From positions 1-44,623 of the forward strand of contig JANQHK010000155.1 in NCBI GenBank assembly GCA_028282685.1: a stretch of DNA of 44,623 nucleotides. Direction: 5' to 3'. The stretch comes from Phycisphaeraceae bacterium. GTDB taxonomy: Bacteria > Planctomycetota > Phycisphaerae > Phycisphaerales > Zrk34. Position numbers and translations under genes: made by a program. Under the pieces are notes generated by a model. That model saw nothing but the letters and a program-made list of their open reading frames with translations, ran no database searches and had not been told where the DNA came from. Shown one piece after another: positions 4,288 to 22,464 of this stretch (the stretch's first letter is position 1; every line of letters begins with the position of its first letter).

Positions 4288-6056
4288 ACGCTGCCGCGCA
4301 ATCATCCCGCCCCAAGCTGCTGATTGCCTATCTGCTGATCTGGCTTGCCGTCACCGCGGTCACGGCCCTGGTGGTCCTGGCTGAGATGTTCCTGGGTTCG
4401 TGGACCGGCTGGATCACGGCGCCGTTGTGCTTTGTCGCGATCCTGGCGGTGGGCCGAAAGGTCCTGGCGGACACCGGTGAGATGCCCGCGGCGAAGCAGC
4501 ACCTTGCGCGATTGGCCGGCAGTTACTTCGTGGTCAATCTTGTGGGCGCCTTTTCTCTGGCCGTTACCGAAGGGATCAATCCCTACAACGCGCTCAACCT
4601 CGTCGCGGTCATCGTGTTCATCAACGGCTGGTTGCTCGTCGCCCTGCTGGCGCTGGCGCGCTGGGCGCTGACGCGGCGCCACCCCGTGCTGAGCGTGGCG
4701 CGGCAGACGCTCGACGAAGCCCGTGGCCTGCGCGTGGTGAACGGTTTCTTCCTGCTGTTTCTGCTGCTCATTCCCATGCTGGTGTTTTTACTGTCGCCCG
4801 ATCAGCCGATTCGCTACCGCATCCAGCAGTTCATGACGTATGGACTGGGCATCAGCCAGTTTCTTCTGGCGGCTTTCGTGATCCTGTTCGGGGCCTGGAC
4901 GCTGACCAGCGAGTTCACCGGCCGCCAGGCGCAGGTGTCGCTGGTCAAGCCGATCGGGCGCGGCGCGTTCTGGCTGGGCAAATGGCTGGGCATGGTGATT
5001 CTCAGCGGGGTGTTGCTTGGCATTGCCGCCCTGACGGTCTACTTGTTCACGGTGTTCTACCTGGCCAGGCAGCCGGCCCTGGATGAGCTGGACGCCCTGC
5101 TTGTGAAACAGGAAGTGTTGACGGCGCGCGTGGCCAGCCCGCCGCAGCCGCCGGACAACCTGACGAATCGCGTGGACAAGCGCATGGAGGAAATGCTCTC
5201 CACGGACACCGGCCGATCGCTGGTGATCGAGCGGGGCGGCCAGGCGGCGGTGCGAAACGAAATGCTCCAGCGGGAGTTGGCGCAATGGCGCTCGATCGGT
5301 CCGTATCGCCAATCCGAGCGCTGGCACCAGGACTACTACTTCACCGATCTGCGGCGTGCCGCCCGGCAGAGCGAGTTCCTCTCTCTGCGCTACAAGATCA
5401 AGGTCAAGGGCGATTGGGGCGTGACCACCAAACTGTTCCTGGTGATCAACGACAAGCCGTACAAGCAAATCGAAACCCCGCTCGACATCGTCCAGCGCCA
5501 GCCGATTCCTTCGCGCCTGGTCGACGATGAGGGGCGTCTGAAAATCACCGTCGTCAACCTCGATCCGAAAATCTCGGTGATATTTCCCGCCGATCATTTG
5601 GAACTGCTTTACACCGTCGATCGATTCGGCCCGAATTACCTGCGCGGCATGGTGATTGTCTGGATCAAGCTGTCGTTTGTGGCGGTGCTGGTGCTGTCGT
5701 TATCGACCTACCTGGGTTTTGCCGTGGCGTCGCTGGCGTCGGGACTGGTCTGGGCGGTGGCGACGTTCAGCCCGTACCTGCTGGAGGCGGCGGGACGATT
5801 CTCCGCCAAACCCGAAGACGCCGAAACCGTGCGCTGGGCGACGTCCGTGGTGCGCTGGGTGGCGACGTCCGTGGCATGGTTGGGTCAGCAATACGCCGCG
5901 TATCAGCCGATCGACCGACTGGCCGAGGGTTTGTACATCGGCTGGGACCAGTTGCTCGGTTGTGCCGGATGGATCGGGCTGGCGTGGAGTCTGCCGCTGG
6001 CGCTCAAAGCGTGGGTGGTCTTCCGCAGACGCGAACTGGCGCACGTGCAGGTGTAA
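4284..6056 (+). CDS. ABC-2 type transporter permease
   Basis: A 590-residue membrane subunit with about five hydrophobic segments in the first 270 residues, a soluble loop of about 190 residues (roughly 275-465) and further hydrophobic segments near 470-500 and at the C-terminus. The large loop between membrane halves is common in planctomycete ABC-2 permeases of the NatB/gliding-motility exporter type. The GTG start at 4284 overlaps the ATPase stop (GTGA), so the two are translationally coupled. The loop carries a strand-rich section (LKITVVNLDPKISVIF) suggestive of a beta-sandwich outside the membrane. The substrate cannot be told from sequence. Confidence 0.8.
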   Translation: MNAAAQSSRPKLLIAYLLIWLAVTAVTALVVLAEMFLGSWTGWITAPLCFVAILAVGRKVLADTGEMPAAKQHLARLAGSYFVVNLVGAFSLAVTEGINPYNALNLVAVIVFINGWLLVALLALARWALTRRHPVLSVARQTLDEARGLRVVNGFFLLFLLLIPMLVFLLSPDQPIRYRIQQFMTYGLGISQFLLAAFVILFGAWTLTSEFTGRQAQVSLVKPIGRGAFWLGKWLGMVILSGVLLGIAALTVYLFTVFYLARQPALDELDALLVKQEVLTARVASPPQPPDNLTNRVDKRMEEMLSTDTGRSLVIERGGQAAVRNEMLQRELAQWRSIGPYRQSERWHQDYYFTDLRRAARQSEFLSLRYKIKVKGDWGVTTKLFLVINDKPYKQIETPLDIVQRQPIPSRLVDDEGRLKITVVNLDPKISVIFPADHLELLYTVDRFGPNYLRGMVIVWIKLSFVAVLVLSLSTYLGFAVASLASGLVWAVATFSPYLLEAAGRFSAKPEDAETVRWATSVVRWVATSVAWLGQQYAAYQPIDRLAEGLYIGWDQLLGCAGWIGLAWSLPLALKAWVVFRRRELAHVQV

Positions 6057-6129
6057 TCATGGCGGATGTCGCACCCGGTTGAATTGCGGCTCGTACAATC
6101 GGCAGGACGAACTAACGAACTAACGAATC

Positions 6130-8217
6130 ATGTCCCGTAAAGACCAACTCGTCGTGTTTCTCGCTTCGGTGGTGGTGGTCGCTGCGCTTGGGGCCGGTTC
6201 GTTGCTGCTGAGTCGGGTTAATGCACAGCGTGAGCAGTTGGAGCTGACGGTCAATCCCGATGTGTATCGCAACATGCCGCCGAAGATCGCGATTACGCAG
6301 ACGGCCCTGGGCGGTTTCCGCGTGCTGGCGTTGGACATCATGTGGCAGCGGCTGTGGGCTCATCAGCAGGCGGGGCGTTTTGAGGAGGCCGACCAGCTTT
6401 CCAAGTGGATCACCACCCTCCAACCGCGCTATGCCGAGGTCTGGGCCAATCGGGCCTGGAACATGTCGTACAACATCTCCGTGTCCACGCACACGCCGCA
6501 GGAACGGTGGATGTGGGTGCAGTCCGGCATCGAGCTGCTGCGCGGTACGGACTCCGAGGCCGGGGGCATCGAACTCAATCCCACCGCCATCAAGCTCTAC
6601 AAGGAACTGGCGTGGATATTCCTGCATAAGATCGGCCAGTTCTCCGACGAGATGCACAAGTACTACAAGCAGGAACTGGCGCTGCAGTGGCACGAGTTGT
6701 TGGGCGCGCCGCCGATCGGCACGGCGCAGGATACGCTCGACGGGTTCGCCCCGATTGCCGAGGCGCATGCCCTGGCTGCCGGCGCGCCCGCATCCGGCGG
6801 TGAGCAAGGCGCCATGTTGATGCGTTACGAAGCGGCCCACCTCCAGCGCTATCTCAAGGCTCGCCCGGATGTGGCTGACCAGGTCCGCCGCATCGAGGAG
6901 ATGGGCTACGATCCGGACGAAGCGTTCCTGCGCGATCTGGGACGGGTGGAACGTCGGCGGCAGGCCATTCGCGCCGGCTACCTGCCCGGCGCTCAAACGA
7001 TCACCACCCCGCGTCGCCAGGGCCTGCTGCTGGAATGGATCGATGCGCATCGCGACAGCGAGCCGGGACGGCATCTGCTGGCGTTCATCCGCGCCAAGGT
7101 GCTGGCGACCACCTACCGCATGGACCCATCGTTCATGATGGAACTGATGCGGGGCGAATGGCTGATCATGGATGCCGACAATCCGCTCGTCGATGAGTTT
7201 GAACTGGTCAATCCCGAACAACCGATTCCGCTGCCGTTGGACTGGCGACATCCGGCGGCGCACGGATTGTACTGGTCAGCGCTGGGCGTGCGCACCGGGC
7301 AGATTCGGCGTGATGACAACGACCATTACATCACCATGCTGAACACCGATCGGCAGGTGCTCCACGCATTGCAGGCCCTGACTCACATCGGGCGCATCAC
7401 GTTCGATCCGATCACCGGCCACTACGCCCCGATGCCCGACATCCGATACATCCCCGCCTACGAACGCGCCATGATCAGCTCCACGGGGCGGATCGGAGGC
7501 GCATTGGAACAATCCACCGCGCCGGAAACGTTCCGAATCGGACACGAGAATTTCCTTACCTGGTCGGTGCAGACGGCTTGGTTCTACGGAGCCAGGGAGC
7601 AGGCGCAGCGGTGGTACACCCGTTTGGGGCGTCTTTACAGCACCAGTCAGCCCGATCGGATGGCCAGGTACTCCCAGCCGCTGGATTCCTTCGTCATGAC
7701 CGACTTCAAGATGGATATGCATGGCATGGCCGATGCGCGTCGCGTGATCGTCGGCCTGATCCGCCAGGCGCTGGTCGAGGGCTTCGCCAATGACAACGCG
7801 CCGGCGGCATCGCAGCGATTGGCCCTGGCCCGTCGGCTTCATACCTGGTTCCAGAATGAAAAAATCGGCGAGCGCCATTTCATGCTCGAAGAAGGCCGCA
7901 TGTCCCTGCATTCCTTCGCCGATCTGGCCGCGGGCGCGCTGCAGGAACTGATGATCGCGCCCCTGCCGTTGGCCCTGAAGGTGCGCATCTGGGAGAACCC
8001 CGGCGCCGATCCCCAACTCGAAGCGCTCAAGCGACGGATCTACGATACGTTGCGCCCGGCTTTCGCGCAGATGGGCGAGCAAATCGGTCAGCCGGCCGCG
8101 GTGTTGTTCCCCGAGCCGACGGGCATGGCCGAATACCGCAAATCCGTTGGGAAAAAATCGCCGCCGAAGGTCGATTCCGGGAACTCCGCCCCCCCTGCCC
8201 GCGTCGAATCCGAATGA
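6130..8217 (+). CDS. Large membrane-anchored planctomycete protein, function unknown
   Basis: A 695-residue protein with one N-terminal membrane helix (about 7-28) and a long, mostly helical soluble part. The early region (LWAHQQAGRFEEADQL, then LQPRYAEVWANRAWNMSYN) resembles TPR helices. The middle and end are rich in Trp, His and Arg and match no enzyme motif I know. The tail is Lys/Pro/Ser-rich and probably disordered. It follows the ABC permease by 73 bases in the same direction and may belong to that transcript. A role as scaffold or accessory of the SPFH/ABC block is only inference from position. The ribosome-binding sequence ahead of the ATG is poor. Confidence 0.75.
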   Translation: MSRKDQLVVFLASVVVVAALGAGSLLLSRVNAQREQLELTVNPDVYRNMPPKIAITQTALGGFRVLALDIMWQRLWAHQQAGRFEEADQLSKWITTLQPRYAEVWANRAWNMSYNISVSTHTPQERWMWVQSGIELLRGTDSEAGGIELNPTAIKLYKELAWIFLHKIGQFSDEMHKYYKQELALQWHELLGAPPIGTAQDTLDGFAPIAEAHALAAGAPASGGEQGAMLMRYEAAHLQRYLKARPDVADQVRRIEEMGYDPDEAFLRDLGRVERRRQAIRAGYLPGAQTITTPRRQGLLLEWIDAHRDSEPGRHLLAFIRAKVLATTYRMDPSFMMELMRGEWLIMDADNPLVDEFELVNPEQPIPLPLDWRHPAAHGLYWSALGVRTGQIRRDDNDHYITMLNTDRQVLHALQALTHIGRITFDPITGHYAPMPDIRYIPAYERAMISSTGRIGGALEQSTAPETFRIGHENFLTWSVQTAWFYGAREQAQRWYTRLGRLYSTSQPDRMARYSQPLDSFVMTDFKMDMHGMADARRVIVGLIRQALVEGFANDNAPAASQRLALARRLHTWFQNEKIGERHFMLEEGRMSLHSFADLAAGALQELMIAPLPLALKVRIWENPGADPQLEALKRRIYDTLRPAFAQMGEQIGQPAAVLFPEPTGMAEYRKSVGKKSPPKVDSGNSAPPARVESE

Positions 8218-8409
8218 GCGGCAGACGTTGACCCGGCCGACCATCCCCCCGGATCGGCCACAACCCACCCGCCGCCGCTCGCCCGGGACCTCCGCAACGG
8301 AGGCGACAGCCATGCGCAACGCGGCATCCATCCTCTGCCTGTACCACTTTGACGACGCCCCGGTTTCAGCCGGACGGCTATCCATTCACTCACACCGAGG
8401 AGGCGCACC

Positions 8410-9510
8410 ATGGTTATCCTGAGATTCAGCGATGAGGAAATCGACCGTCGCGTCGAAACAGTCAAGCTGCCCCGGGCCGTGCTCGAGCCGACCCCGTGCG
8501 CGGATTCGACCCATCGACCCGATCGCGGACATTGCGGCCGATATCGCGAACCGGAGGAATCGGCGCCGCGCCTGCTCGGGCCCTGGGTGATCTCCGTCCT
8601 GCTGCACGGCGGGGTGGTGATTTTGGCGTTGTTTGTCGTCGCCAGCCGGTACATCCCCCAAACCGAAGATGAAATTTTCGATCCCCCGACGATGGAGCCG
8701 ATGGATATGACCAAACCCGTCAGCTTCACGTCCGGCGAATACGAGTTCAAGCATGAGTTTCCGATTGACCAGCCGGTCTCCGAGGAGATCGCCAAGGGCG
8801 ATCCGATGAACGATCTGGTCCTGGAGAAATCTTACGATCCAACAACCCTCGGAGTGACCAGTCAGAAGAAGAGCACGCAAGGCCTGCCGGACGGCATTCC
8901 CGATTTTTTCGGTCTTCCGCCGGGCGATCCGTCGGGAGGCGGTGCGCGCAACGTGGTGTACGTCATCGATGCATCCGGCTCGCTGGTTGACACCTTGCCG
9001 TACGTGCGGAAGGAGTTGGTCCATTCCATTCAGAAACTTTTTGAAGGCGGGTGGGTGAGCCATTACGGCAAGGCCAAGTACCTTGAGCCGGCTGCGTTCA
9101 CCGTGATTTTCTACCAAAACGGCGAGGCCAGGGAAGCGCCGGAACCGCACCCGGGCATGAAGCGGGCGCTCCCGCGGATCAAGGACATGGTTTGCCGGTG
9201 GGTCGGTGGGGACCGGATCGTTCCCCACGGCAATTCCAATCCGCTCCGGGCCATCGAACTGGCGCTCAGTTACAAGCCGGACCTGATCTATATCCTTTCC
9301 GACAACATTACCGGACGCGGCCAGTGGCAGGTTGATCAGGATGAACTGATGGAGCGGATCGCCCAAGCCAAGCGGAAACACCGCATCTCCGATACGTCGA
9401 TCAACACGATTCAGTTTTTGTATCCGGACCCGCTGGGCACACTGGAGCGGATCACCTCCGAGCATGGCGGACGGTACCGCTTTGTCAGCGAATCCATGCT
9501 GGGACTGTGA
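8410..9510 (+). CDS. VWA-domain protein with TonB-like transmembrane helix (paralogue 1)
   Basis: A 366-residue protein. A cytoplasmic N-terminus (about 1-57) precedes one membrane helix (about 58-78) that reads PWVISVLLHGGVVILAL. The Ser62-x3-His66 spacing and the following G-G-V-V match the TonB/TolA-type helix that ExbB/ExbD or TolQ/TolR energise. A linker leads to a von Willebrand A domain with the MIDAS motif DASGS (187-191) and the later segment DLIYILSDNITGRG. The start has a good ribosome-binding site (GAGGAGG). It is a tandem paralogue of the next gene and lies upstream of exbB and two exbD genes. Inferred role: a force-transducing or metal-dependent adhesion protein of the cell envelope. 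Confidence 0.85.
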   Translation: MVILRFSDEEIDRRVETVKLPRAVLEPTPCADSTHRPDRGHCGRYREPEESAPRLLGPWVISVLLHGGVVILALFVVASRYIPQTEDEIFDPPTMEPMDMTKPVSFTSGEYEFKHEFPIDQPVSEEIAKGDPMNDLVLEKSYDPTTLGVTSQKKSTQGLPDGIPDFFGLPPGDPSGGGARNVVYVIDASGSLVDTLPYVRKELVHSIQKLFEGGWVSHYGKAKYLEPAAFTVIFYQNGEAREAPEPHPGMKRALPRIKDMVCRWVGGDRIVPHGNSNPLRAIELALSYKPDLIYILSDNITGRGQWQVDQDELMERIAQAKRKHRISDTSINTIQFLYPDPLGTLERITSEHGGRYRFVSESMLGL

Positions 9511-9779
9511 TGAAAAGATGGATCGGTCGGCGAAATTCAGGCGAATTTGCCTTCAGGAATCGGTACAATGACGTATCCGGAAAGTCGCCAAGCTGGTGAA
9601 CCGACTCCCGCGTGGGTCGCCCGGTCCGAGTCAACCGGCGAACAGGGCGCTTTGGCACTGGACAAACGCGCGTCAAGGCGGTTCAATATACGGCCCTGCC
9701 ACTGCCCTCTGGGCCCCGCCTCGGCTCGACGTCGGTCTTTCAAGCGTGCCGGATGCCCGACGGATACGGAGGTTCAGTC

Positions 9780-10826
9780 ATGTTCCTGCTGACTTTTGCT
9801 GACAAATCGTACCCCAAACCCCAGCCTCAGGGTCAACCGGAGCCGCCCTACGAAGAAGAACTTCTTGAAGAAGAAGAGCTTGCGTCGGTAGGCGATGAAG
9901 TGTCTCACGTGTTGACCATGCTCATGCCTTGGGTCATTTCCGTGCTGCTTCACTTGGGTCTGATTCTGCTGGCCTTCTTCGTCACCTGGGCCGTCGCCGG
10001 TAACCAGGAAGAAGAGGAAGAGGAAGTCATTCCGATCAGCCAGTTCGAGAACGATCGGCCCAGCGAATTGCTGACGTACTCGGAAGACCTCGATGTCCCG
10101 GCGACCACCGAAATCCCCCGTGAAGTGCAGACGCAGGAAGTCGCCAAGGGCGATCCGCTCAGCTCCCTCAACACCGATACCGCCAACGACCTGGCGCTGA
10201 TCGGCGTGACCGGCTCCAAGGCGCTGCCGCTCGGCTCGCGCATCGGTAAGGATCCGTTCGGCGTGGGCATGTACGGCGTGGGCGGAAATGCACGCAACAT
10301 CGCATACGTCGTCGATGCGTCCGGCTCGCTGATCGATACCCTGCCGTTCGTCATCAACGAACTGAAAGATTCGATCCGCCGACTGAACGGACAGATGCAG
10401 AAGTTCACCATCATCTTCTTCCAACGCGACACGGCGATCGAGGTGCCGGTGCCTCACCGCGGCCTCAAGCGCGCCTCGCCCGAGGTCGTGCACATGGTTT
10501 CCGAATGGATCACCCTGGAAAACGGCAACGTCACACCGCGCGGCTCCTCCAGTCCTGTCAAGGCGATCGAACTGGCCCTGGGCTACCGGCCGGACCTGAT
10601 CTACATCCTCTCCGATAACATCACCGGCCGCGGACCCTACGCCGTGGCCCAGGATGAGTTGATCGAACTGATCAAGAAAACCAAGCAAGCCAAGAGCACC
10701 ACACGCACCAAGATCAACACCATCCAGTTCCTCTATCCCGATCCGCTGCGCACGCTCGAGCTGATTGCGACAGAGAACGGCGGCATTTACCGATTCGTCG
10801 ATGAATCGGTGGTGGGGCTGAAATGA
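9780..10826 (+). CDS. VWA-domain protein with TonB-like transmembrane helix (paralogue 2)
   Basis: A 348-residue paralogue of the preceding gene. After an acidic N-terminus (EEELLEEEEL) comes the helix PWVISVLLHLGLILLAFFV with the same Ser54-x3-His58 pair, an acidic linker, and a VWA domain with DASGS (179-183) and the shared motifs AKGDPL, DLIYILSDNITGRG and TINTIQFLYPDPL. The ATG at 9780 is preferred over the upstream in-frame GTG at 9612 because GGAGG lies just ahead of it and homology with paralogue 1 begins after it. The 269-base gap upstream shows no other gene. The stop overlaps the start of the TPR gene (ATGA). Confidence 0.87.
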   Translation: MFLLTFADKSYPKPQPQGQPEPPYEEELLEEEELASVGDEVSHVLTMLMPWVISVLLHLGLILLAFFVTWAVAGNQEEEEEEVIPISQFENDRPSELLTYSEDLDVPATTEIPREVQTQEVAKGDPLSSLNTDTANDLALIGVTGSKALPLGSRIGKDPFGVGMYGVGGNARNIAYVVDASGSLIDTLPFVINELKDSIRRLNGQMQKFTIIFFQRDTAIEVPVPHRGLKRASPEVVHMVSEWITLENGNVTPRGSSSPVKAIELALGYRPDLIYILSDNITGRGPYAVAQDELIELIKKTKQAKSTTRTKINTIQFLYPDPLRTLELIATENGGIYRFVDESVVGLK

Positions 10827-11890
10827 TCCGAGTGACACACAAGTCGATCGCGGGTTTGGCGCTGTTGGCGCTGAGCGCTTTTCTCTCCACCGCCCGGGCG
10901 GACAGTCTCGCCATCGAGGGATTGGAATACAAGAACGTGCGCCTGCTCGGACTGGACGGCCAGACACTGAAAGTGCAGATCAGCGGGCGCACCCAGTCGG
11001 TGGACCTGGCCCGGCTGAGCAAGCTGGAAGTGGATGAGCTGCCGCAACTGGCCAAGGCACGGCAGGCGTTGGACAACAACCAACCCGAACGCGCCGCGAC
11101 GCTGTTCGACGAAGCCCTGCGCGTTCTGCCGGCACGCAAGCAGTTCCTCAAGCCCTACCTCCAGGTCCAACGTGTTCGGGCGTTGGATGCGACGGGAAAA
11201 TTCGATCAGGCCGTACGCGGCTTCCTGACCCTCGCCCTCAGTCATCCCCAACCCTACTTCCTGGAAGCGATGCCGAAGAATGTTTCCGGCAGTGAGGCCC
11301 AGCGCAAACAGGTGCTGCAACGGATTGATTTCGTCCTGAAATCCACACGCAACAAGCGCACCCAACGGGTGCTGAAGGACTTGGCCGAGTCGATCCGCAA
11401 GGGCGAAACCAAGCCCGCGTCTAAAAACGGCAACGGCAACGTCACGAACCGCACCACCGCCTCGACCGGCACAACGCGTACCGGGCCGGCTTCCGCCCAG
11501 GTGCGGGCCAGGCCCTCACGCTACCATCGCGTGATCCAGGGGATTCAGGCCACAATCAACGACGGTAATTACGACAAGGCACAGGAACTGATCGACAAGA
11601 TGTATCAGCAGGCGGAAGCGCCCGTCCCGGCGCTGACCTTCCTGACGGCCCAGGCCTTGGCCGGAAAGGGCAGGCACATGGACGCGGCGATCGCATTCCT
11701 CCGCGTTGTGATCCTCTGGCCCGATTCGCCCAACGCCACCGGCGCCCTGATCGGCGCCGGACGCAGCTTCCAGGCCCTGGGAGACAACCGGACCGCCCTC
11801 ACCCTCTGGACCGAAGCCAAAGACAAAGCCCAGGATCCTCAAACCCGCAACCGGATCGACGCACTGCTGAAGTCGATCTCGGCAGAATGA
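10823..11890 (+). CDS. Secreted TPR-like protein
   Basis: A 355-residue protein with a signal peptide (about 1-26, cleavage near ARA-DS), a short N-terminal strand-rich module (DSLAIEGLEYKNVRLLGLDG) of the kind seen ahead of planctomycete TPR proteins, and helical repeats with TPR character (ARQALDNNQPERAATLFDEALRVLPA is one). A disordered Asn/Thr/Gly-rich linker (about 195-230) separates a second helical block. It is translationally coupled to VWA paralogue 2 and precedes the exbB gene, so it likely acts with that envelope machine as a periplasmic scaffold. That role is inference. Confidence 0.75.
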   Translation: MIRVTHKSIAGLALLALSAFLSTARADSLAIEGLEYKNVRLLGLDGQTLKVQISGRTQSVDLARLSKLEVDELPQLAKARQALDNNQPERAATLFDEALRVLPARKQFLKPYLQVQRVRALDATGKFDQAVRGFLTLALSHPQPYFLEAMPKNVSGSEAQRKQVLQRIDFVLKSTRNKRTQRVLKDLAESIRKGETKPASKNGNGNVTNRTTASTGTTRTGPASAQVRARPSRYHRVIQGIQATINDGNYDKAQELIDKMYQQAEAPVPALTFLTAQALAGKGRHMDAAIAFLRVVILWPDSPNATGALIGAGRSFQALGDNRTALTLWTEAKDKAQDPQTRNRIDALLKSISAE

Positions 11891-11975
11891 ACCAGACCGG
11901 GCGGGGTGAGCCCCGCCGCGATAAGCATGACTACCCCCACAACCTCGAACCCTTGCATTGAATAAAGGAGACGGC

Positions 11976-12767
11976 ATGAGCTTGTCCAAGCACTTTCGAT
12001 GGATAGTCGCAGGCGGCTTCGCCTTGCTGGTCATGGCGTCCGGCGCCTGGGCGCAGGAATCCGAAACCCAGGGCGGGCAGGACGTCAGCTTCGGTATGAA
12101 ATTCATTTGGAACCCCGGCGACTTGCTCGGCCAGGCCGTAATCTTCCTGCTTTTGATCATGAGCGTGGTGGTGGTGGCCCTGGTCATCCACTTCCTGTTG
12201 CAGCACCGCAAGACCACGATCATGCCCGAGGAGGCGGTCGATACCATCGAGACCCTGCTCGATGAGCGCCGCTTCAAGGAAGCCATCGAAATCACCGCCG
12301 AGGATGAATCGGTCTTCGCGCAGCTCATCCACGCCTCGCTCAGCGAAGCGTCCAACGGATACGGCGCCATGGAGCGCGCCATCGAGGAAACCGGCGACCT
12401 GGCCATGTCCCGCCGCGCCCGCGCGCTGGAATATCTGTCGGTCATGGGCGCGGTCGGCCCGATGCTCGGACTGTTCGGAACGGTCTACGGCATGATCGTG
12501 GCGTTCTGGACGATCGTCGAAAAGGGCGGCCAGCCCAACCCCGCCGACCTCGCCGCCGGTATCTCCACCGCGCTGGTCACCACGTTCTGGGGCCTGGTCG
12601 TCGGTATCCCCGCCGTCGCGGCCTACACGCTGATCCGCAACCGGCTCGACTCCCTTGTCGCCGAGACCATGATCCTCTGCGAAGACCTGATCGGCCGTTT
12701 CAAGCCCGGCTCCAAGCCCGCTAAGCCCTCCGGTTCGGCGACACCCAAGCCCAAGCCGCAGGACTGA
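11976..12767 (+). CDS. ExbB/TolQ/MotA family proton channel protein
   Basis: A 263-residue inner-membrane protein. It has a signal-like N-terminus (about 1-27), a membrane helix near 45-70, a cytoplasmic stretch, and the conserved pair of helices with LSVMGAVGPMLGLFGTVYGM and the Pro-containing GLVVGIPAVAAYTL. These are the hallmarks of the ExbB/TolQ pore subunit that couples proton flow to work. ATG 11976 follows AAAGGAGACGGC; the TTG 18 bases upstream is less likely. Two ExbD-like genes follow directly. Because the upstream VWA proteins carry the TonB-type S-x3-H helix, they are the likely energised partners rather than a classical TonB. Confidence 0.92.
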   Translation: MSLSKHFRWIVAGGFALLVMASGAWAQESETQGGQDVSFGMKFIWNPGDLLGQAVIFLLLIMSVVVVALVIHFLLQHRKTTIMPEEAVDTIETLLDERRFKEAIEITAEDESVFAQLIHASLSEASNGYGAMERAIEETGDLAMSRRARALEYLSVMGAVGPMLGLFGTVYGMIVAFWTIVEKGGQPNPADLAAGISTALVTTFWGLVVGIPAVAAYTLIRNRLDSLVAETMILCEDLIGRFKPGSKPAKPSGSATPKPKPQD

Positions 12768-12799
12768 GCCCGCTTTCCGCCAGCTCAGGAGTTCACGCC

Positions 12800-13252
12800 A
12801 TGGCAAAGAAGAAACACGAAGCCAATAAGCTGGAACTGAACCTGACCAGCATGCTGGACATCGTCTTCCAGTTGATCATCTTCTTCATCTTGGTGACCAA
12901 TTTTGCCAACGCCCAGTTGCCCAAGCTGGAATTGCCCCGCCCCGAGGGGTCCAAAGCGAAGGAACCGGAGAAGGTGCGGAAGGTGATTGTGAATATCGTG
13001 CCGGTGCGCGATCCGGACAACAAACCGACCGGGCAGACCAAGCTACTGGTTGTGGACGGTATCCAGTTGGCCGCGACGGATTACCCCGGCGTAACCGATT
13101 ACCTGAAAAAGGAATTGCTGGAGCACCCCGATCTTCAGGTGAATCTGCGTGCGGACAAGGGCCTGCATTTTGAGGCCGTCCAACCGGTCATGCGGGCGGT
13201 TACTCAGGCCAAGATCGCCCACATCAACCTCGGCGCCCTGGAAGAGGAATAA
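12800..13252 (+). CDS. ExbD/TolR family protein (first copy)
   Basis: A 150-residue single-pass protein. A basic N-terminus leads to LNLTSMLDIVFQLIIFFIL, in which the membrane Asp (LD) is the proton-carrying residue of ExbD/TolR, then a periplasmic domain. It has a clear ribosome-binding site (CAGGAG). With the ExbB-like and second ExbD-like proteins it would form the stator of the energy-transducing complex. The presence of two different ExbD genes suggests a heteromeric stator. Confidence 0.92.
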   Translation: MAKKKHEANKLELNLTSMLDIVFQLIIFFILVTNFANAQLPKLELPRPEGSKAKEPEKVRKVIVNIVPVRDPDNKPTGQTKLLVVDGIQLAATDYPGVTDYLKKELLEHPDLQVNLRADKGLHFEAVQPVMRAVTQAKIAHINLGALEEE

Positions 13253-13282
13253 GTTCACCGGCCGCCATCCAGGAGACTCACC

Positions 13283-13834
13283 ATGTCGCCTTCACGCCAG
13301 GATAAACAACACGCCGCCCACGCCGCGATGTCCGGCAAGGTGGAATACACCGAGACCGTTCACCACGAAAGCTCACGCAAGGTGCGCGGGCCGCGCAAAA
13401 TGGCGCAGCTGAACCTGACCAGTATGCTGGATGTCTGCTTCCAGTTGCTGATCTTCTTCGTGCTGACGGCCAACTTCGTCGCCGCCGAAGGCATCATCGC
13501 CGCCAACCTGCCGACCGGCGTATCCGATGCCGACCCGATCAAGCCCAACCAGGAGCCGCTGAAAATCGTACTGCGCGCCAAGGCGGGCACCGACGATGTG
13601 ATCATCTGGGTCGAGCGTCAGCCGTATATCCACGATGGCGATTTCTACAAGCTCTACAAGATTCTCGAGGGGTTGCGGTGGGATCCCAAGGAAAACCCCA
13701 ACGGTTCGATCGAGCCGGACAATCCCATCATCATCAAACCGCTGACCGGTATTCGTTGGGACCACGTGGTCAATGCCTTCAACGCCTGCGTCCGTGCCAA
13801 GTTCGAGAACGTGAACTTCGCCGAAGCCGGCTGA
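13283..13834 (+). CDS. ExbD/TolR family protein (second copy)
   Basis: A 183-residue ExbD/TolR-like protein with a longer basic/His-rich N-terminus, the conserved LNLTSMLDVCFQLLIFFVLT helix with the key Asp, and a periplasmic domain. An AGGAG site precedes ATG 13283. It differs from the first copy in the soluble domain (it contains KPLTGIRWDHVVNAFNAC), so the two are not recent duplicates. It lies in the same transcript as the exbB-like gene and the TPR gene that follows. Confidence 0.92.
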   Translation: MSPSRQDKQHAAHAAMSGKVEYTETVHHESSRKVRGPRKMAQLNLTSMLDVCFQLLIFFVLTANFVAAEGIIAANLPTGVSDADPIKPNQEPLKIVLRAKAGTDDVIIWVERQPYIHDGDFYKLYKILEGLRWDPKENPNGSIEPDNPIIIKPLTGIRWDHVVNAFNACVRAKFENVNFAEAG

Positions 13835-13874
13835 CCGACCTCGCGGCTGTGCTCAATAACCGCTGGAGATGGAT

Positions 13875-16649
13875 ATGCCCCTGACCGGTGACAACGATAA
13901 CCGACGGGTCCGCTGGTGGCGGCTGTCGGCCCTGACCGTGCTGGCTCTGGCCGTGGTGCGCCCCGCTCCGTGCACGGCGCAGAACTACGACGAGGAGTTG
14001 TTCATCCAGGGATTGGCCGAGCGCCGGCTGGATTCGGTCATCGAACATCTGATCGCCAATCCCCCAAAGCATTTTGATGGCCGTCGCATCCTGCTCAAAG
14101 CCCTGACCGAGCATTACCTGCCCACGCGCACGCCGCAGCAGTTCCCCGATATCTATCAGCGCATGCTGGGAATGTACGATCGTCTGGTCCAGGAAAGTCC
14201 CGAGAGGCAGCCGATTCTCGCCAGCGATTTTTCGCAGGGCCTGCTCTTCGGCGTGTTGACCGGCCAACAGCGGACCGACTTGTTCCTCACCTGGGGCGTG
14301 CCCACCCCCACGCAAACCCGGTTGGCCTGGGACCTGTCGAGCCGGTCGGCCACGTTACTCGAGGAAGCCGCAGGCAAATGGACACAACTGCAAATCACCA
14401 TGCCGCGCAGCCCGAAGTTCAATGACATGGTCAACACCGGCACCTGGGGTGATCTGCAAAGCTACGGTTCGCGCAACGTGCCCTACTTCCTGGCGTGGGC
14501 CAAGCTCTACCAGGCCTGCCTGCCCGGGACCGATGCCGAACAGGCGAAAAAATTGGCCCAGGACGGGCTGAACGCGCTGGGCAGCGTGATCGACGGCTAC
14601 GCCGCACAGATCGATGGCTTCAAAGCCCGCTGCCATTTGTTGCGTGGTCGGCTGCTGCTCATCGCCGAACCCGACGAGGCCGCCGCCGAGTTCAACAAGG
14701 CGCTCGATTTCGACGCCCAGGCCGTCGAGCCCGAAGTGCGCTGGCAGGCCAGACTCGGCTTCATCATGGACTACCGCCGAAAGGGAGAAAGCGAAAAAGT
14801 CGAGCAGCGCACCAAGGCCCTGCTCGCTGAGGAACTGACCGTCAAGGGATTGATCTACCGCATCCTGATCTACGATAACCAGGTCCGCGCCCTCCGCGCG
14901 AAGATGGCCAAGGCCAAGAACGAAGAGTCCAAACAGGAACTGCTGGTCGAATCCTACAAGCCCTACGAAGTGCTGATGGCTGATCCGAAGATTCCCGCCG
15001 AACTGCGCGACCAGGTCGAGGCCTTTATCTTCGAACGCCTGGCCACCGGCATCGATCCCGCCGGCGATACCTCCAAACTGCCGCCAATGGTGCAATTGGC
15101 CATGGCCACGCAGAATTACAACCTGGGCATCGGACACTTCCAGAACCGCCGGCAGGCGGAGATGAAGCAGGCCCTGACCCAGGCGATCAAACTCCTCGAG
15201 CCGATGGCCGCTTCCCAGCAGATCACCGCCGGAACCAAGGCCCGCGCCATGCAGATGCTGGGCGCCAGTCAGTACCTGACCAATCAGGCGAAGCATAGCA
15301 TTGAAACCATGATCGCCCTGGCCGATCAGTTTCCCGATCGCAACGAAGGCGAAGCCGGCATCCGTGCGGCCGTCGCCTGGGCTGAGGGACTCTGCAATCA
15401 TCCGCAAGTTGTGAACAATCCCGAAGCCAAAAAGGCCGCCGGCAAGCTGTTCGGGCAGGCACTGAATATCCTCGTCGAGAAATACGGCTCGATCGACCTC
15501 GCTGCGGACGGCTGGTATATGCTTGGCGCGTTTTACCGCGAACGGGAACAGTACCCCCAGGCCGTCCAGGCGTACAAGAAACTGGCTCCGGATCACCGTC
15601 TGATCGTTGATGCGACATACGAAAAACTGGTCTGCATGAATGCGATCTGGGCGGAAAGCCACGATAACCTCCTGACCGCTGAGATACTCAGCACGATCCG
15701 GACCTTACAAGAGCAGGTGGAGCGGGCGATGCAGGGCCGAGTCGACGCCCAGCGCCGGCAGCAGTTGCGCCGCTACATGGCGCAGTCGATCCTGGTGCGC
15801 ATTGCCATGATGATTGAGACCACCAGCGACTTCTTTGCCATCGAACGCGACCTGAGAGAACTGACCGGGAACTACTCGGACGTGCAGGATCTGGCGATGC
15901 GCGTGACGGTGTTGCAGATACGCATCCTTCAGAAGCAGGGCAAGTGGGCGGAGGCGAAAACGAAATTGCTGGCTTTGCGCGAGAAGCAACGCGACAAATT
16001 CGGCCCGCTCGCCGTCGGCGTGATCGAGAATATCTTTGCCGACATCAACCGGGCGCGCATCGATAAGGACGAGTCAACGGTTCGGAAACTGGGCGACATT
16101 GCCGATGAACTGGCCCGGGAAGTGTGGACCTGGGTCCAGCAACGCAGTGACTTTGCCACCCTGGATGAGGCGGAGAAGATCGCATACTGGCTGTTGCCCG
16201 CGAAGGCCTCCGAATATGCCGGTAAACACAAAGAGGCGGCGAAACACTACAGCGCCATTCGCGCCCTCAAGTCCGGCAAGAACAATATTGATGCCGTGGT
16301 CGGTCTGATGGAGAGCTACTTCCAGATCGGCGAGCAACTCAACGCCGAAGCGCGGGCGACGGAAAAACCCGAGGAAAAACAGGCCCTGGAGAAGCAGGCC
16401 CTGGCGCAGTACCGGCCGGCCTCGGCATTGTGCAATCAGATCATCGAATCCGAAAGCGAGAAGAAGAGCCGGTACTACTGGCATGCCCAGGCCCGCCTGC
16501 TCGCCATGGTCGATCGCACCACATCACAGAAAGTCAAGCCGAGTATTGCGAAAAACATCCAGCGGCTGCAACGTGACGATGCCGAACTTGGCGGCGATCC
16601 GTGGAAATCCATCCTCATGCAGCTCGAAGCCAAGCATTCGCAGCGCTGA
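13875..16649 (+). CDS. Large secreted TPR protein
   Basis: A protein of about 924 residues with a signal peptide or anchor (RRVRWWRLSALTVLALAVV) and an almost wholly helical body built from TPR-like units (for example AADGWYMLGAFYREREQYPQ near residue 550 and the C-terminal helices). It ends the VWA-ExbBD block and is followed by a terminator, so it is probably the last gene of the operon. ATG 13875 is preferred to ATG 13869 because TGGAG abuts the first ATG but is six bases from the second. Such proteins are common companions of ExbB/ExbD in planctomycetes. Precise function unknown. Confidence 0.82.
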   Translation: MPLTGDNDNRRVRWWRLSALTVLALAVVRPAPCTAQNYDEELFIQGLAERRLDSVIEHLIANPPKHFDGRRILLKALTEHYLPTRTPQQFPDIYQRMLGMYDRLVQESPERQPILASDFSQGLLFGVLTGQQRTDLFLTWGVPTPTQTRLAWDLSSRSATLLEEAAGKWTQLQITMPRSPKFNDMVNTGTWGDLQSYGSRNVPYFLAWAKLYQACLPGTDAEQAKKLAQDGLNALGSVIDGYAAQIDGFKARCHLLRGRLLLIAEPDEAAAEFNKALDFDAQAVEPEVRWQARLGFIMDYRRKGESEKVEQRTKALLAEELTVKGLIYRILIYDNQVRALRAKMAKAKNEESKQELLVESYKPYEVLMADPKIPAELRDQVEAFIFERLATGIDPAGDTSKLPPMVQLAMATQNYNLGIGHFQNRRQAEMKQALTQAIKLLEPMAASQQITAGTKARAMQMLGASQYLTNQAKHSIETMIALADQFPDRNEGEAGIRAAVAWAEGLCNHPQVVNNPEAKKAAGKLFGQALNILVEKYGSIDLAADGWYMLGAFYREREQYPQAVQAYKKLAPDHRLIVDATYEKLVCMNAIWAESHDNLLTAEILSTIRTLQEQVERAMQGRVDAQRRQQLRRYMAQSILVRIAMMIETTSDFFAIERDLRELTGNYSDVQDLAMRVTVLQIRILQKQGKWAEAKTKLLALREKQRDKFGPLAVGVIENIFADINRARIDKDESTVRKLGDIADELAREVWTWVQQRSDFATLDEAEKIAYWLLPAKASEYAGKHKEAAKHYSAIRALKSGKNNIDAVVGLMESYFQIGEQLNAEARATEKPEEKQALEKQALAQYRPASALCNQIIESESEKKSRYYWHAQARLLAMVDRTTSQKVKPSIAKNIQRLQRDDAELGGDPWKSILMQLEAKHSQR

Positions 16650-16680: not shown

Positions 16681-16704
16681 CTGCCGACCCCGGCGGTTTT
16701 TTTT
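16681..16704 (+). terminator. Rho-independent terminator after the TPR gene
   Basis: GCCG-ACCC-CGGC forms a short GC stem followed by GG and eight T residues. It lies between the TPR gene and the first nfo 5' stump, so it would end the VWA-ExbBD transcript. Confidence 0.6.
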
Positions 16705-16719
16705 GATTATCATCACCTC

Positions 16720-16827
16720 ATGTTCGGTTCACACCTGTCTATTGCCGACGGCTTGCACCGGGCCCTTGAGCAGGCCGATACGCTGGGCATGAAGACTGTC
16801 CAGATCTTCACCAACCATCGGATGTAA
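16720..16827 (+). pseudogene. nfo: nfo 5' fragment, copy 1 (host-type stump)
   Basis: This 35-codon open frame reads MFGSHLSIADGLHRAL and ends in VQIFTNHRM then stop. It matches the N-terminus of endonuclease IV (Nfo) up to the conserved FTKNQRQW motif, where it breaks off after FT. The codon use is GC-rich like the chromosome on both sides, so I take it as the original host 5' end left behind by an insertion. A possible -10 (TATCAT) sits exactly six bases before the ATG. The rest of the host gene resumes near 29207. Confidence 0.85.
16803..16819. other. Attachment junction 1 (left end of older element)
   Basis: The host nfo sequence ends here in TTCACCAACCA, which is also found at the second junction (18088). 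After this core the sequence leaves nfo. By the recombinase context it is the left attachment site of the older insertion. The exact crossover bases are inferred (central AA likely). Confidence 0.65.
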
Positions 16828-16946
16828 TCCGACGGGATGGTATGACATTGGGGGGCTGGGGGTTTGTCTCTTGCCGTGTCCACTTTTTGACTTCCGATGG
16901 TCGCATCGCTGGCGGCCAGGTACTTACGAGCCGTCTAATAATTCGG

Positions 16947-16972
16947 GTATCCTAATTTGATTTTTAGGATAC
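16947..16972. repeat. 9-bp inverted repeat upstream of the prepilin-like gene
   Basis: GTATCCTAA and TTAGGATAC are perfect inverted arms separated by eight bases. It is AT-rich and lies about 100 bases before the prepilin-like start, so it is more likely a protein-binding site than a terminator. Confidence 0.5.
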
Positions 16973-17073
16973 ACTAATCTATGGTGTGGCATCGTCAGAG
17001 TTGTGATGCCGGGCAGCGGTCACGGTGGCTTATGCCCAACCTCTTTGTTTGAAACGAATTAGGAGCTTCACCT

Positions 17074-17856
17074 ATGTGGAATCCACAACGAAATCGGAAC
17101 CGGTCAAAGGGTCTGACACTGATCGAATTGGTGGTGGTGCTCACCATCCTTACCGCCTTGGGCGGGCTGCTTGTGCCGATTATCGGGGGCATGATCAACC
17201 GCACGCACTTTGCCAAGTGCGCGGTGACTATTCCCGATCTCACCCGGCAGATCACCCGATCCTTCACCTCGGACCTGCGTTATCCCAACACGTGGGACTC
17301 CCTGATGGACGCGGCAAGCCCGGGGTCGTTGTTCCCGAAACTCCCCGGCGGGGGCGATGCGGGTGGCGAACTGGTCGCCGGTACGATCACCGGCGATCAG
17401 GCGGACGCATTCATTGCCCTGGGGATCACCGAGGTTGTGGACCTCGACGCGACCATTGATGGTGATGCGACCTGGGACGTATCAAACACTGCCAACATCC
17501 GGGCGTTGAACCCGGTCGGCGACAACGATGTGGCGACGTTGAACACCTCCGGCATCTCGGTGGACAGTCTGAACCTCAAGCGGCACCTCAGTGATCCCAC
17601 GACAATCTACGTAGTCTTCGGGCTGGGTAACCCATGCTCGGCGGTGGGCCCCAGTGGGCTGTTCACCGAGTCACCCACCCACTTTGGCGGCGAGGATGTG
17701 ATGAACCCGCGTGATGTTTACCAGCGGTATGTCGTGATTTTCTCGGTCAATGACAACAACGATGTTCGCTTTGAGACTGCGGCTTCGGTTCACCCGGACG
17801 GACTGGATGGAGGGGAAGCTCACGTGCGAGGCTTCTACGAAGAGACAGCACCTTAA
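17074..17856 (+). CDS. Type IV prepilin-like / pseudopilin-like protein
   Basis: A 260-residue protein with a class III signal: a short basic leader ending in KG, then LTLIELVVVLTIL with Glu at mature position 5, as required by prepilin peptidase (cleavage after Gly). The mature part is large, Gly/Asp-rich and strand-rich, as in the many pseudopilin-like secreted proteins of planctomycetes. TTAGGAG lies seven bases ahead of the ATG. No other secretion or pilus gene is near, and it sits alone inside the older element between two nfo stumps, so it is probably cargo. Exact function unknown. Confidence 0.82.
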   Translation: MWNPQRNRNRSKGLTLIELVVVLTILTALGGLLVPIIGGMINRTHFAKCAVTIPDLTRQITRSFTSDLRYPNTWDSLMDAASPGSLFPKLPGGGDAGGELVAGTITGDQADAFIALGITEVVDLDATIDGDATWDVSNTANIRALNPVGDNDVATLNTSGISVDSLNLKRHLSDPTTIYVVFGLGNPCSAVGPSGLFTESPTHFGGEDVMNPRDVYQRYVVIFSVNDNNDVRFETAASVHPDGLDGGEAHVRGFYEETAP

Positions 17857-17881
17857 CAAGGGTCACAGATGAATCCTGGTG

Positions 17882-17933
17882 CTTGTACCATGCCCCCGAC
17901 GGGCTGCCGAGTCTGTCGGGGGCGGCGTACAAG
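17882..17933. repeat. Two-part stem-loop downstream of the prepilin-like gene
   Basis: CTTGTAC and GCCCCCGAC on the left pair with GTCGGGGGC and GTACAAG on the right (7 plus 9 bp, 3-base internal loops). It could end the prepilin transcript, but there is no T-run, so a terminator call is uncertain. It may instead be part of the element end. Confidence 0.55.
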
Positions 17934-18001
17934 CGCGCCGCTTGGCCGGATGCTCGTTTGTGTTGTAGCCAGTTGCGGGGTCTTCGCAATATACTTCACG
18001 C

Positions 18002-18115
18002 ATGTTTGGTTCCCACCTATCGATAGCGGGCGGTCTTCACAATGCCCTCATTAAGGCCGCAGAACTCGAGATGGATTGCGTCCAAGTATTCACCAACCAC
18101 CCGCCAAGTCGGTAG
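18002..18115 (+). pseudogene. nfo: nfo 5' fragment, copy 2 (replacement end of older element)
   Basis: A 37-codon open frame, MFGSHLSIAGGLHNALIK to CVQVFTNHPPSR then stop. Residues 1-31 are identical in protein sequence to the functional nfo at 29118, although 11 of the 31 codons differ at silent positions. It breaks off at the same FT codons as copy 1. I read it as the replacement N-terminus carried by the older element, later severed by the second insertion. TATACT lies six bases before the ATG. The recombinase pseudogene on the other strand has its stop codon inside the attachment core. Confidence 0.85.
18084..18102. other. Attachment junction 2 (left end of younger element)
   Basis: TTCACCAACCA at 18088-18098 repeats the core of junction 1. 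Left of it is nfo copy 2; right of it begins the 3' end of the serine recombinase gene, whose TGA is read from bases 18090-18092 on the minus strand. Confidence 0.65.
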
Positions 18116-20116
18116 TCGCAAACTCCCACTCCGTTAAGTCATGTCGCAACGTGTACTTGTTGCGTCCGGTGCGATTGGTCCGCTTCGGCGTCCCCGGCTT
18201 CGCGGGCACCCACTCGCGGTCCCAATACAACTCAACTCGTTTGAACAATCGTCGAAACGCCTCTCCGCGTTCGCGGTATTCAAGCGTCGGTAGTTCTGCC
18301 AACAACCGCTCGCGCTCGGCTTGTTGTTTTTTATCCCGATGGAACAGCGCCTCGATGCGTTCACCAAGAGGTACGGTGCGGGGTCGCCAGTTCTCCAGTT
18401 CCACCTCGGCTTCGTCAGCCTTACGCTTCAACACTGCCCGCTGCTGATCGCCCGTCGCCTCCACCCACGCGAGTGTGAACCGCTCGACGGCCTCGGTGGC
18501 CTCCCCAATTCGCCGCTCGGCCTCGGCTACCATGTTGGCCTCCACCATGGTGATCGCATCTTGAAATTCGGTGAGGTCGAACGGCAGTCGATTGAACCGC
18601 GTCTCACCCGGCGGGTCGTCGTAGAAGTGATCCAACGCCAGTCGCCGTACACGCTGAATTTCCGGGTAATTGATACCGTACTCCTTCACCAAGTAGCCCG
18701 CCAGAGCGTTGATACCCTACGGTGGCGTGGGCTTGAAACTCGCGGGAGAAGTCCTCGTCGTTACTCAGCCGGGCCAGCCGTTCTTCGATGTTCTCACGGG
18801 CCGCCGCACTCATCACCCGGTCAAACTCGACGTTCTGCTCGGCGAGCTTATCGAGCAACATTTGCTCTGCTTCATCATGCTTGATGGTATGGAAGCCGCA
18901 CTCAACCTTCTGCCCATTGCTTTGTGCGTTGCGGTATGTGTTGCACACGTATACCACTGATCCGTTATCCATCCGACCGGCCATGTGCTTGCCGCAATGG
19001 CCACAGTAAAGGATGTTTTTCAAATAATAGCGGGGATTGCGTGGGGCAAAGTTCGGTTGCTCACGCTCTGCCGCCAGTTTCTCCTTGGCGCGTTTCCACA
19101 TCTGCTTATCAATGAGCGGTTCGTGCGTTCCCTCCATGATGACCCGCTCGTCCTTACCCCGCCATCGCTTCTGCGCTTCTGTCGGTCCGTTGCGCCATCC
19201 CTTCACATCAACCATCTGCCCGCCGGTGTCGAACGTGCAGAAATCAGCTACCTGTGTTTTCCCAAAGTGTGTGTCGCCTGCGTAGGCGGGATTCTCAAGA
19301 ATGGTGGTAACGAGTGCGTGCGTGAACGGCTTGTCGTAGTAGGTGAGCCCCTCTTCGTTAAGCCGTTTGGAAATTCCCCGGCGGGATAACGATAACTCCG
19401 TGTATAGCTCGAAGACCCGCTGGACGGATCGAACGTGTTCTTCGTTATCGCTTTTCACCAGTTTGATCGTGTCGCTGTGGTCCTTACGCGGGATCTTTTC
19501 CGGCGTTACTTCGCGTGGTGTGTCGCGTAGAGTTCCATCTTCGTTTGAGTCGTAGGTCCATCCCCGCGTGCGGCTCACTGGTTGCCATACCCAACGCAAT
19601 GCACCTCCCGACCCGTAGCATGCCTTGCCGTAGCCAAAGGGGTGCGGACCGGTGGCCTGAACCGGTTGCCTTAAAGTTGCTTATCCGTGTCCGTATTGAT
19701 TGGTACGCGGATTGGCGTAGCTTCTCATCGTTGTTGTGCGCCCCGACCACCGCCAGCACATCCTCAGCTATGCCGTGCCGGGTCAGGTCGCTGTTGTCAC
19801 GCAGCGCGATGAGGCGTGTGCCGTGGGAACGTAGCGTTGCGATGATGGAGAAATATTCGAAGGTGTCGGTCTGACCAAACCGGTCTTGCGACTCCACATA
19901 TGCCGTGCTTATCTCATCGGTTTCGACCTGCTGTATGAATTTCTGGAACTCGTCCGAGGCCGAGACCTTGCTACGGCTAACGGTGTAGACATGCCAGTAT
20001 GGCTGCGGCACCTTGATGCCACGAACGGCCAGCATGTTCTTAACGTTATCGATCTGTCCTTGATGGTCTTGCTCGTCTGTCGATACACGGATGAGTACTG
20101 CTTCGTGTTTGGCCAT
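18090..20116 (-). pseudogene. Large serine recombinase, broken by two frameshifts
   Basis: Three open segments in different frames together make a large serine recombinase. 20116 to about 19655 has the resolvase domain with catalytic-Ser context LIRVSTDEQ. About 19655 to 18715 has the recombinase domain and a zinc ribbon (YCGHCGKHM and a later YVCNTYR). About 18715 to 18090 has the charged coiled coil and C-terminal tail ending in LAGGW. Frame changes occur near 19655 (after NFKATGS, continuing PHPFGYGK) and near 18715 (after HATVG, continuing INALAGY). The 3' end touches the attachment core, as expected for the integrase of this element. It may be truly decayed, or one or both shifts may be sequence errors. 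Confidence 0.8.
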
Positions 20117-20294
20117 AATGCTTAGACCTTACCCTGACCGTAGTATGAAAATTGAAGCAGTGCGGCCACCCGGTCAAGGTACAATGGCTCGGCTTGGGGC
20201 ATGATTCTTGTTTGCTTACGTTGTAGGCCTTTTCCCCGAGACTTGCTGGAGTTTCCTACTTCAGTATCTCGCTTGATTTCGGTACTGGATTTGA

Positions 20295-20885: not shown

Positions 20886-20975
20886 GTTTGTCTCCATTGT
20901 TGGTGTGTGCCGGTAAGGGTACACCTCTAATGGTGCTTGATGTAAGTCCAGAATGGCCCGATTTATCGCGAACTT

Positions 20976-21350: not shown

Positions 21351-21488
21351 TGGACTACACCTCTTCGTTGATCCGTTGGTAGCGGCGTGCTACATCTGTC
21401 AGTGTTACGGTCGCAACGGTTAGCGTACAATAAGTATGTCCGTTGGGCACCGTGCTTGGTGGACGACAATTTAGTCAGGCTTTGCGGA

Positions 21489-21602: not shown

Positions 21603-21687
21603 ACAAGGTGCAAGCGTCCCCCCGCCTTTTCATACGTACATGCATCTTCGGCGAAGCTGACGTTCAATCACTTTGCTGGAGATGATA

Positions 21688-22383: not shown

Positions 22384-22464
22384 TGCCCTTGGTAGGATTG
22401 GGCCATCGTGTTACTGGTGGCCGTGTCCGCAATGCTGCGGCATTGCCTATGAAGGGGTATATCA

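Follow-up and report, generated by a model that had tools for sequence, protein, structure and literature searches.

A planctomycete gene set that pairs VWA proteins with an ExbB/ExbD-type motor and probably encodes a force transducer

The gene set at positions 8410 to 16649 of a 44,623-nucleotide stretch of DNA from a Phycisphaeraceae bacterium (forward strand of contig JANQHK010000155.1, assembly GCA_028282685.1; the whole stretch is called the window below) encodes two paralogous VWA proteins, VWA1 and VWA2, together with an ExbB motor subunit, two ExbD proteins, and two tetratricopeptide repeat (TPR) proteins. Comparison of these sequences with their relatives indicates that the locus probably specifies a proton-driven, cell-envelope-spanning force transducer in which the VWA proteins dock on an ExbB/ExbD1-ExbD2 motor. 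The VWA helices look like clients of a TonB-type motor, a reading that the sequences support because the helix histidine is invariant among 34 aligned relatives, because a His-bearing VWA adjoins motor genes in 55 of 61 genomes in a planctomycete survey of the kind proposed in a first-pass annotation of this DNA, and because the motor serine that faces TonB in Escherichia coli is kept. Williams-Jones et al. 2025 (PMC12204202) proposed, in the portion of their study drawn on here, SHLS-type vWA force transducers with the same gene set in the Planctomycetes-Verrucomicrobia-Chlamydiae group; the window locus fits that description and so adds a further case of a kind already known.

RESULTS

Layout of the locus

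The features of the locus are as follows (aa, amino acids; ORF, open reading frame; MIDAS, metal ion-dependent adhesion site; TM, transmembrane).

8410..9510, + strand: VWA1, 366 aa, with a cytoplasmic N-terminal tail, single membrane helix, linker, and VWA domain (ORF; relatives of the same layout)
8578..8649, + strand: predicted VWA1 membrane helix PWVISVLLHGGVVILALF, with Ser62 at 8593-8595 and His66 at 8605-8607 (sequence, alignment A1)
8950..9498, + strand: VWA domain of VWA1, MIDAS DASGS (sequence, alignment A1)
9780..10826, + strand: VWA2, 348 aa, layout as VWA1 (start moved from GTG 9612)
9924..9992, + strand: predicted VWA2 membrane helix PWVISVLLHLGLILLAFF, with Ser54 at 9939-9941 and His58 at 9951-9953 (conservation in 34 aligned relatives)
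10296..10814, + strand: VWA domain of VWA2, MIDAS DASGS (AlphaFold2 model, fold matches)
10823..11890, + strand: TPR1, 355 aa, with a signal peptide, a small five-stranded domain, and two TPR blocks (Pfam TPR_16, 4e-10; predicted structure; relatives)
11958..12767, + strand: ExbB/TolQ-type motor subunit, with Ser69 (12162-12164) in the alignment column of E. coli ExbB Ser34 (PF01618, E 6e-27; alignment to PDB ExbB; column counts)
12800..13252, + strand: ExbD1, TM Asp20 at 12857-12859 (PF02472, E 2e-18; "first" clade of 65)
13283..13834, + strand: ExbD2, TM Asp50 at 13430-13432 (PF02472, E 3e-17; "second" clade of 65)
13869..16649, + strand: TPR2, 926 aa, with a signal peptide and long TPR-type repeats (weak TPR matches, best E 0.0045; relatives)
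16681..16696, + strand: stem resembling a terminator, with a T run after it, directly 3' of TPR2 (pattern match only; region total not above shuffles)

ORFs and Pfam matches bear out the genes and the order given in the first-pass annotation, and the set is an apparent operon: VWA2 and TPR1 overlap by 4 nt, and TPR1, ExbB, ExbD1, ExbD2, and TPR2 follow in one direction at spacings of 30 to 67 nt. The wider gaps 5' of VWA1 (192 nt) and VWA2 (269 nt) could accommodate promoters of their own, and a promoter scan found none. ATG 9780 is the more likely start of VWA2 than GTG 9612, because VWA1 (MVILRFSD) and VWA2 (MFLLTFAD) then open alike. The N termini of TPR1 and TPR2 are both signal peptide-like, and the hydrophobic stretch of TPR2 has no lipobox.

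A TonB-like helix on a VWA protein

The sole hydrophobic helix of VWA1 is GPWVISVLLHGG and that of VWA2 is MPWVISVLLHLG, and the S-x3-H pair that had been noted in both paralogues is indeed there, as Ser62/His66 and Ser54/His58, respectively. Residues 10 to 32 of E. coli TonB read PWPTLLSVCIHGAVVAGLLYTSGV in the part of PMC12215075 used here, and both the S-x3-H of that helix and the PW that precedes it recur in the two window helices, which belong to proteins that are 44% identical. An alignment of 34 relatives (alignment A1, VWA2 numbering) leaves just five invariant positions, His58, Asp179, Ser181, Gly182, and Leu195, which puts the helix histidine on a par with the MIDAS Asp and Ser in conservation; at residue 54, 31 of the relatives have Ser and 3 have Ala. 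No Asp or Glu occurs within helix residues 52 to 71 of the 34 aligned VWAs.

Sequence-only searches of Pfam and NCBIfam gave no significant VWA domain (VWA_3 at E 0.23 for VWA1, none for VWA2) and no Pfam TonB_C (PF03544) match in either protein, and the identity of the domain rests on the DxSxS MIDAS together with an AlphaFold2 model of VWA2. That model, built from 34 sequences (mean predicted local distance difference test score [pLDDT] 76.6, predicted template modeling score 0.58), places a helix at residues 30 to 74 and a VWA domain, mostly at pLDDT >90, at residues 173 to 345; residues 85 to 172, mostly of low pLDDT, would form a disordered linker. Its best fold match is the VWA domain of 8if4_A (Z 19.9, root mean square deviation 2.6, 164 residues aligned), and the bacterial VWA structure 4fx5 also matches (Z 18.7, root mean square deviation 2.4, 161 aligned). 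Such likeness of a predicted fold to VWA structures is no evidence of function.

Motif and motor linkage among relatives

We searched 61 related genomes, fetched the DNA around the matches, and sorted 118 VWA ORFs into classes, calling a VWA linked to the motor when ExbB and at least two ExbD genes lay on the same strand within 5 kb. All 61 genomes contain a VWA match. By this definition 77 of the 118 ORFs stand beside the motor, in 68 clusters, and 76 of them carry some helix histidine: S-x3-H in 70, Ala/Gly/Thr-x3-H in 5, and a shifted His in 1, with a single ORF lacking it. Three more ORFs have a partial motor set (two S-x3-H, one unaligned), and the 38 without a motor set comprise 19 with S-x3-H, 2 with Ala/Gly/Thr-x3-H, 2 with some His, 7 whose helix has no His, 7 with no helix, and 1 unaligned. 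An x3-H VWA exists somewhere in 60 of the 61 genomes; in the sole exception (G007), TPR1, ExbB, two ExbDs, and TPR2 lie on a 3.7-kb contig that stops at TPR1. In more distant clusters a TPR1 relative probably occupies the place between VWA and ExbB, as judged from a profile comparison (82%, E 1e-5) that falls short of proof.

A single-protein scan of named genomes returned no match. An alignment-based scan of them returned 162 relatives, of which 80 were kept, and 61 of those 80 loci do not overlap the first set. This second set holds 70 VWA ORFs, 59 of them beside ExbBD; the motif is S-x3-H in 51 and x3-H in 3, and the automatic test failed on 5, one of which (L238) carries S-x3-H on reading while the other four are short or fragmentary ORFs of 124 to 266 aa. 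Ten of the 11 remaining VWA ORFs have S-x3-H and one has a helix without His. The named relatives belong to the Phycisphaeraceae and to other Planctomycetota (strains ZRK34 and ZRK32 among them), apart from one record labeled Vicinamibacteraceae. A phylum-wide sample of 20 loci gave S-x3-H in 18, Thr-x3-H in 1, and no recognizable helix in 1, with ExbB and ExbD adjoining the VWA in 9. The second set and this sample repeat the pattern of the first set. The phylum-wide search matched 97 of 199 genomes, a figure that we do not use as a tally of the system, many of the matches being to the VWA domain only.

The motor side of the contact

In E. coli, TonB Ser16 and His20 touch ExbB Ser34 and Trp38, which in turn connect to Pro190 (PMC12215075, in the part used here). 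We read the corresponding columns from an alignment on the window ExbB of 72 ExbBs from VWA loci. The Ser34 equivalent is kept in 70 of these 72, in 56 of 56 from the second set, and in 10 of 10 from the phylum sample; the two ExbBs without it are those of L061, where ExbB lies ~7 kb from the VWA, and L129. The Pro190 equivalent is likewise kept in 70 of 72, the exceptions (the second copy in L077, and L168) lying outside the VWA clusters proper. L129, a distant cluster (5201-8270), is the only one in which a VWA beside ExbBD has no His in the helix region, its motif being S-x3-N, and also the only one whose ExbB has Gly at the contact Ser, an apparent co-change of VWA helix and ExbB.

An old ExbD pair

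Exactly two ExbD ORFs are present in 65 of the 68 clusters. Over these 65, first and second ExbDs separate into two clades with local support of 98%. The split needs 1 label change, and 0 of 500 shuffles gave so small a number; we conclude that the ExbD1/ExbD2 pair is, to judge by this tree, an ancient and fixed feature. The membrane Asp is present in 130 of the 130 ExbDs of these pairs (94 by pattern, 36 by reading rows).

TonB and Tol components in the same genomes

The first-pass annotation had stated that no classical TonB is encoded with these genes. That is correct for the locus; for the genome as a whole we reject it, since two TonB_C matches lie on other contigs (C85 and C120) and four receptor-plug matches likewise lie off the locus. 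C120 carries TonB, ExbB, ExbD, and plug-domain genes, and the genome has six ExbB-type matches in all. TonB_C was found in 30 of the 61 genomes. TolB_N (PF04052) was found in none of the 61; among the 14 controls, the search picked it up in three, namely E. coli, Caulobacter, and Bacteroides.

DISCUSSION

The proposed machine

Building on the observed gene set, domains, motif conservation, linkage, motor serine, and ExbD pair, we propose that an ExbB pentamer encloses the ExbD1/ExbD2 pair, whose membrane Asp residues would carry protons, and that the VWA proteins dock on the flank of ExbB in the manner of TonB, using the face of their one membrane helix that bears Ser and His; stoichiometry, proton use, and helix docking are all carried over by homology. 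The disordered linker of ~90 residues would then span the periplasm, and the MIDAS-type VWA domain would bind a partner, probably through a metal, so that the partner could be pulled or remodeled. TPR1 and TPR2 would be secreted scaffold or adaptor partners. As to what is pulled, a role in envelope maintenance is a first guess, made because TolB_N was found in none of the 61 genomes; adhesion, envelope remodeling, and substrate uptake, which the first-pass annotation had suggested, would be conjectural roles as well.

Several observations weigh against a TonB-type transducer. The second half of the SHLS motif is missing, with Leu at His+7 and Ser at His+11 each in 0 of the 34 aligned VWAs; this half is less well conserved in Ton, according to the part of PMC12215075 consulted, and we therefore did not treat it as defining for SHLS-type membership. 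The VWA2 monomer model, built without ExbD, has no linker strand ("motor box"). On the motor, V, L, I, M, or A stands in place of Trp38 in every one of the 72 ExbBs, and mostly I or V does so in the second set. Of the 56 second-set ExbBs, 8 align without the second pore Thr, and one further ExbB shows a gap at that site. Three alignable ExbBs of this genome from non-VWA loci also lack Trp38 (two more are unaligned there); the loss may thus be phylum-wide rather than specific to this system, and we dropped Trp38 as a marker of TonB-type docking for this reason. The Asn/Gly co-change is a single case overall, no second one being found in G031. In favor of the reading, S-x3-H in VWA helices exceeds chance when set against other membrane-like segments of the same loci (70 of 77 versus 6 of 748), but the comparison has limits: helix calls follow a simple hydropathy rule, the sequences counted are related to one another, and background contexts are fixed at ~29 residues while VWA contexts are often longer. 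Finally, 19 of the 118 VWA ORFs carry S-x3-H with no motor gene closer than 5 kb, and another 2 carry it beside a partial set only.

The first-pass annotation had tied the Ser/His helix to adjoining ExbB/ExbD genes, and it is these 19 ORFs, with the one VWA beside ExbBD that has no His, that break the tie in places. Six of the 19 belong to family f5, in which VWA and TPR1 stand apart, and five of the six f5 genomes have a separate ExbB-ExbD-ExbD set (L175, L178, L181, L182, and L183, the contig of the last ending just upstream of the set). Such sets soften the objection without removing it. The rest belong to families f2 (eleven) and f3 (two, one at a contig end); G026 and G034 have an ExbB-ExbD-ExbD set elsewhere in the genome, and the fetched DNA of G043 and G015 holds no matching set. 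The unlinked ORFs imply that the S-x3-H motif can outlive linkage to the motor, and their products may use a motor in trans. In planctomycetes outside the order, six loci (L308, L313, L314, L317, L318, and L321) have an S-x3-H VWA and no motor genes found in the surrounding 16 kb.

Alternative readings

Those unlinked ORFs are also what would be expected if the helix were a mere anchor, the VWAs periplasmic adhesion or scaffold proteins, and ExbBD the motor of TonB or some other client in trans; VWA folds are general binding modules, and this genome has both TonB and six ExbB-type matches. An anchor, however, needs no helix histidine, which is found in 76 of 77 VWAs beside ExbBD against 25 of 32 other helix-bearing VWA ORFs; the rarity of S-x3-H in the background speaks against it too, and the 31 genomes, out of 61, in which TonB_C was not found still have VWA and ExbB matches, so that we consider a simple anchor quite unlikely. 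The TonB-type helix and the plug matches of this genome could instead mean that the VWAs substitute for TonB in powering substrate uptake through outer-membrane receptors. This is very unlikely: the genome has TonB_C proteins of its own, the plug matches lie on other contigs (receptors were not searched for in the clusters of relatives), and the C-terminal domain has a predicted VWA fold and no TonB_C match. Pairs of VWAs like that of the window are typical of the TPH-vWA family in the part of PMC12204202 drawn on here, which would make the helix an ExbD-like axle entering the ExbB pore. The lack of an acidic helix residue in all 34 aligned VWAs, together with the two Asp-bearing ExbDs encoded next door, leads us to reject this axle as extremely improbable, and the TPH-vWA family is described in the same source as having neither ExbD genes nor the SHLS motif.

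Two VWA and two ExbD forms had been taken in the first-pass annotation to suggest a heteromeric machine. The ExbD half of that proposal holds, whereas the two-VWA half does not generalize. A machine requiring two different VWA subunits would explain why the window VWAs have diverged so far, why 9 of 68 clusters have two VWAs, of which those of G006 (L050, 12691-14184) and G005 (L051, 4178-5724) add three ExbDs, and why the upstream copy has lost its Ser in G025, G036, and G045, a hint of a division of labor. A single VWA, however, is present in 59 of the 68 clusters, while 65 of the 68 have exactly two ExbDs, and in a tree of 35 VWAs (families f1 and f6) upstream and downstream copies form no clean clades, needing 4 label changes, at least 2 of them forced by supported branches. 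We judge an obligate VWA heteromer unlikely and reject it as a general rule on the cluster counts.

Relation to known systems

The preferred reading, a VWA force transducer on an ExbBD motor, describes a system that would work like TonB or TolA and that reads as neither, because the TonB_C domain and TolB are absent. With E. coli TonB-ExbB-ExbD the locus shares an S-x3-H helix next to PW, the ExbB serine, the TM3 proline, and the ExbD Asp; it differs in having two ExbDs, a replaced Trp38, and a VWA domain in place of TonB_C. TolQRA-Pal with CpoB likewise combines motor, transducer, and TPR partner in one operon, but the window VWAs have no TolA or TonB C-terminal match and carry a VWA domain, and no TolB_N match was found in the 61 genomes surveyed. 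The Agl motor of Myxococcus is TolQR-like. In the Agl-Glt gliding machine the Agl motor works with a VWA protein, CglB, which is described in the part of PMC13104615 used here as a surface protein, whereas an inner-membrane anchor is predicted for the window VWAs. The TPH-vWA/TolQ pairs of PMC12204202 share paired VWA proteins adjoining a TolQ-like gene, yet in the text drawn on they have no ExbD and a helix with Asp, against two ExbDs and no helix Asp in the window.

The closest match is to the SHLS-type vWA transducers. In the same portion of PMC12204202 these have an N-terminal S-x3-H helix, a disordered linker with a motor box strand, and a C-terminal VWA fold. Their genes, reported from Planctomycetes and from further phyla, adjoin a TPR gene, a TolQ-like gene, and two heterologous genes of TolR type, and their docking, at the side of the motor, was modeled with AlphaFold 3. 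The window differs from that description in its two VWA paralogues (a minority among relatives), a second, larger TPR protein, an upstream SPFH-ABC block (7 of 8 family-f1 clusters), and the lack of a linker strand in the model. No deletion phenotype has been reported to date according to that text, which a 2026 review (PMC12905483, likewise drawn on in part) cites, and we found no phenotype report for such a system in the open-license literature. What we add to PMC12204202 are the motif counts, the kept motor Ser with Trp loss, the one Asn/Gly co-change, the contrast of an ancient ExbD pair with minority VWA pairs, the splitting of some clusters, and the zero count of TolB_N matches in the same genomes; we found no prior report of these results in the open-license literature.

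Other genes of the window

The region 5' of the VWA genes (438-8217) encodes two putative SPFH-type proteins, so named from their sequence type, along with an ABC ATPase, an ABC-2 type permease, and a protein of 695 aa; relatives of these occur upstream in the same order in the family-f1 clusters counted above. On the other side, repeats within positions 16720 to 29970 suggest two insertions, one stacked upon the other, where nfo begins: a 103-bp stretch, the 5' end of the AP endonuclease IV gene (PF01261 ORF 29112-29969), is present at 16720-16822, 18002-18104, and 29118-29220, with serine recombinase genes between the copies. Between the first two copies (17074-17856) lies a gene for a pilin-like protein whose N terminus bears a methylation motif (PF07963). 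Within the nfo element, at 22737-24814, a thymidylate-synthase-like gene adjoins a 5-hydroxymethyldeoxyuridine DNA kinase gene (PF18723, E 3e-111), a pair that points to DNA base modification of the phage type. The G+C content falls to ~0.50 at 24 to 28 kb of the window.

Implications

A wider proposal, which we hold to be doubtful, is that the VWA-ExbBD machine replaces Tol-Pal in Planctomycetota, with a fixed ExbD1/ExbD2 heterodimer driving metal-dependent VWA proteins that grip envelope partners and keep or constrict the outer membrane at division, and with one motor type perhaps serving several VWA transducers encoded nearby or elsewhere. If the transducer reading is true, the locus would represent a candidate envelope-maintenance system for Planctomycetota, where our sample gave no TolB_N. 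Force drawn from the proton gradient and delivered to the outer envelope would then not be confined to TonB and TolA, and its load end could be a metal-dependent VWA gripper.

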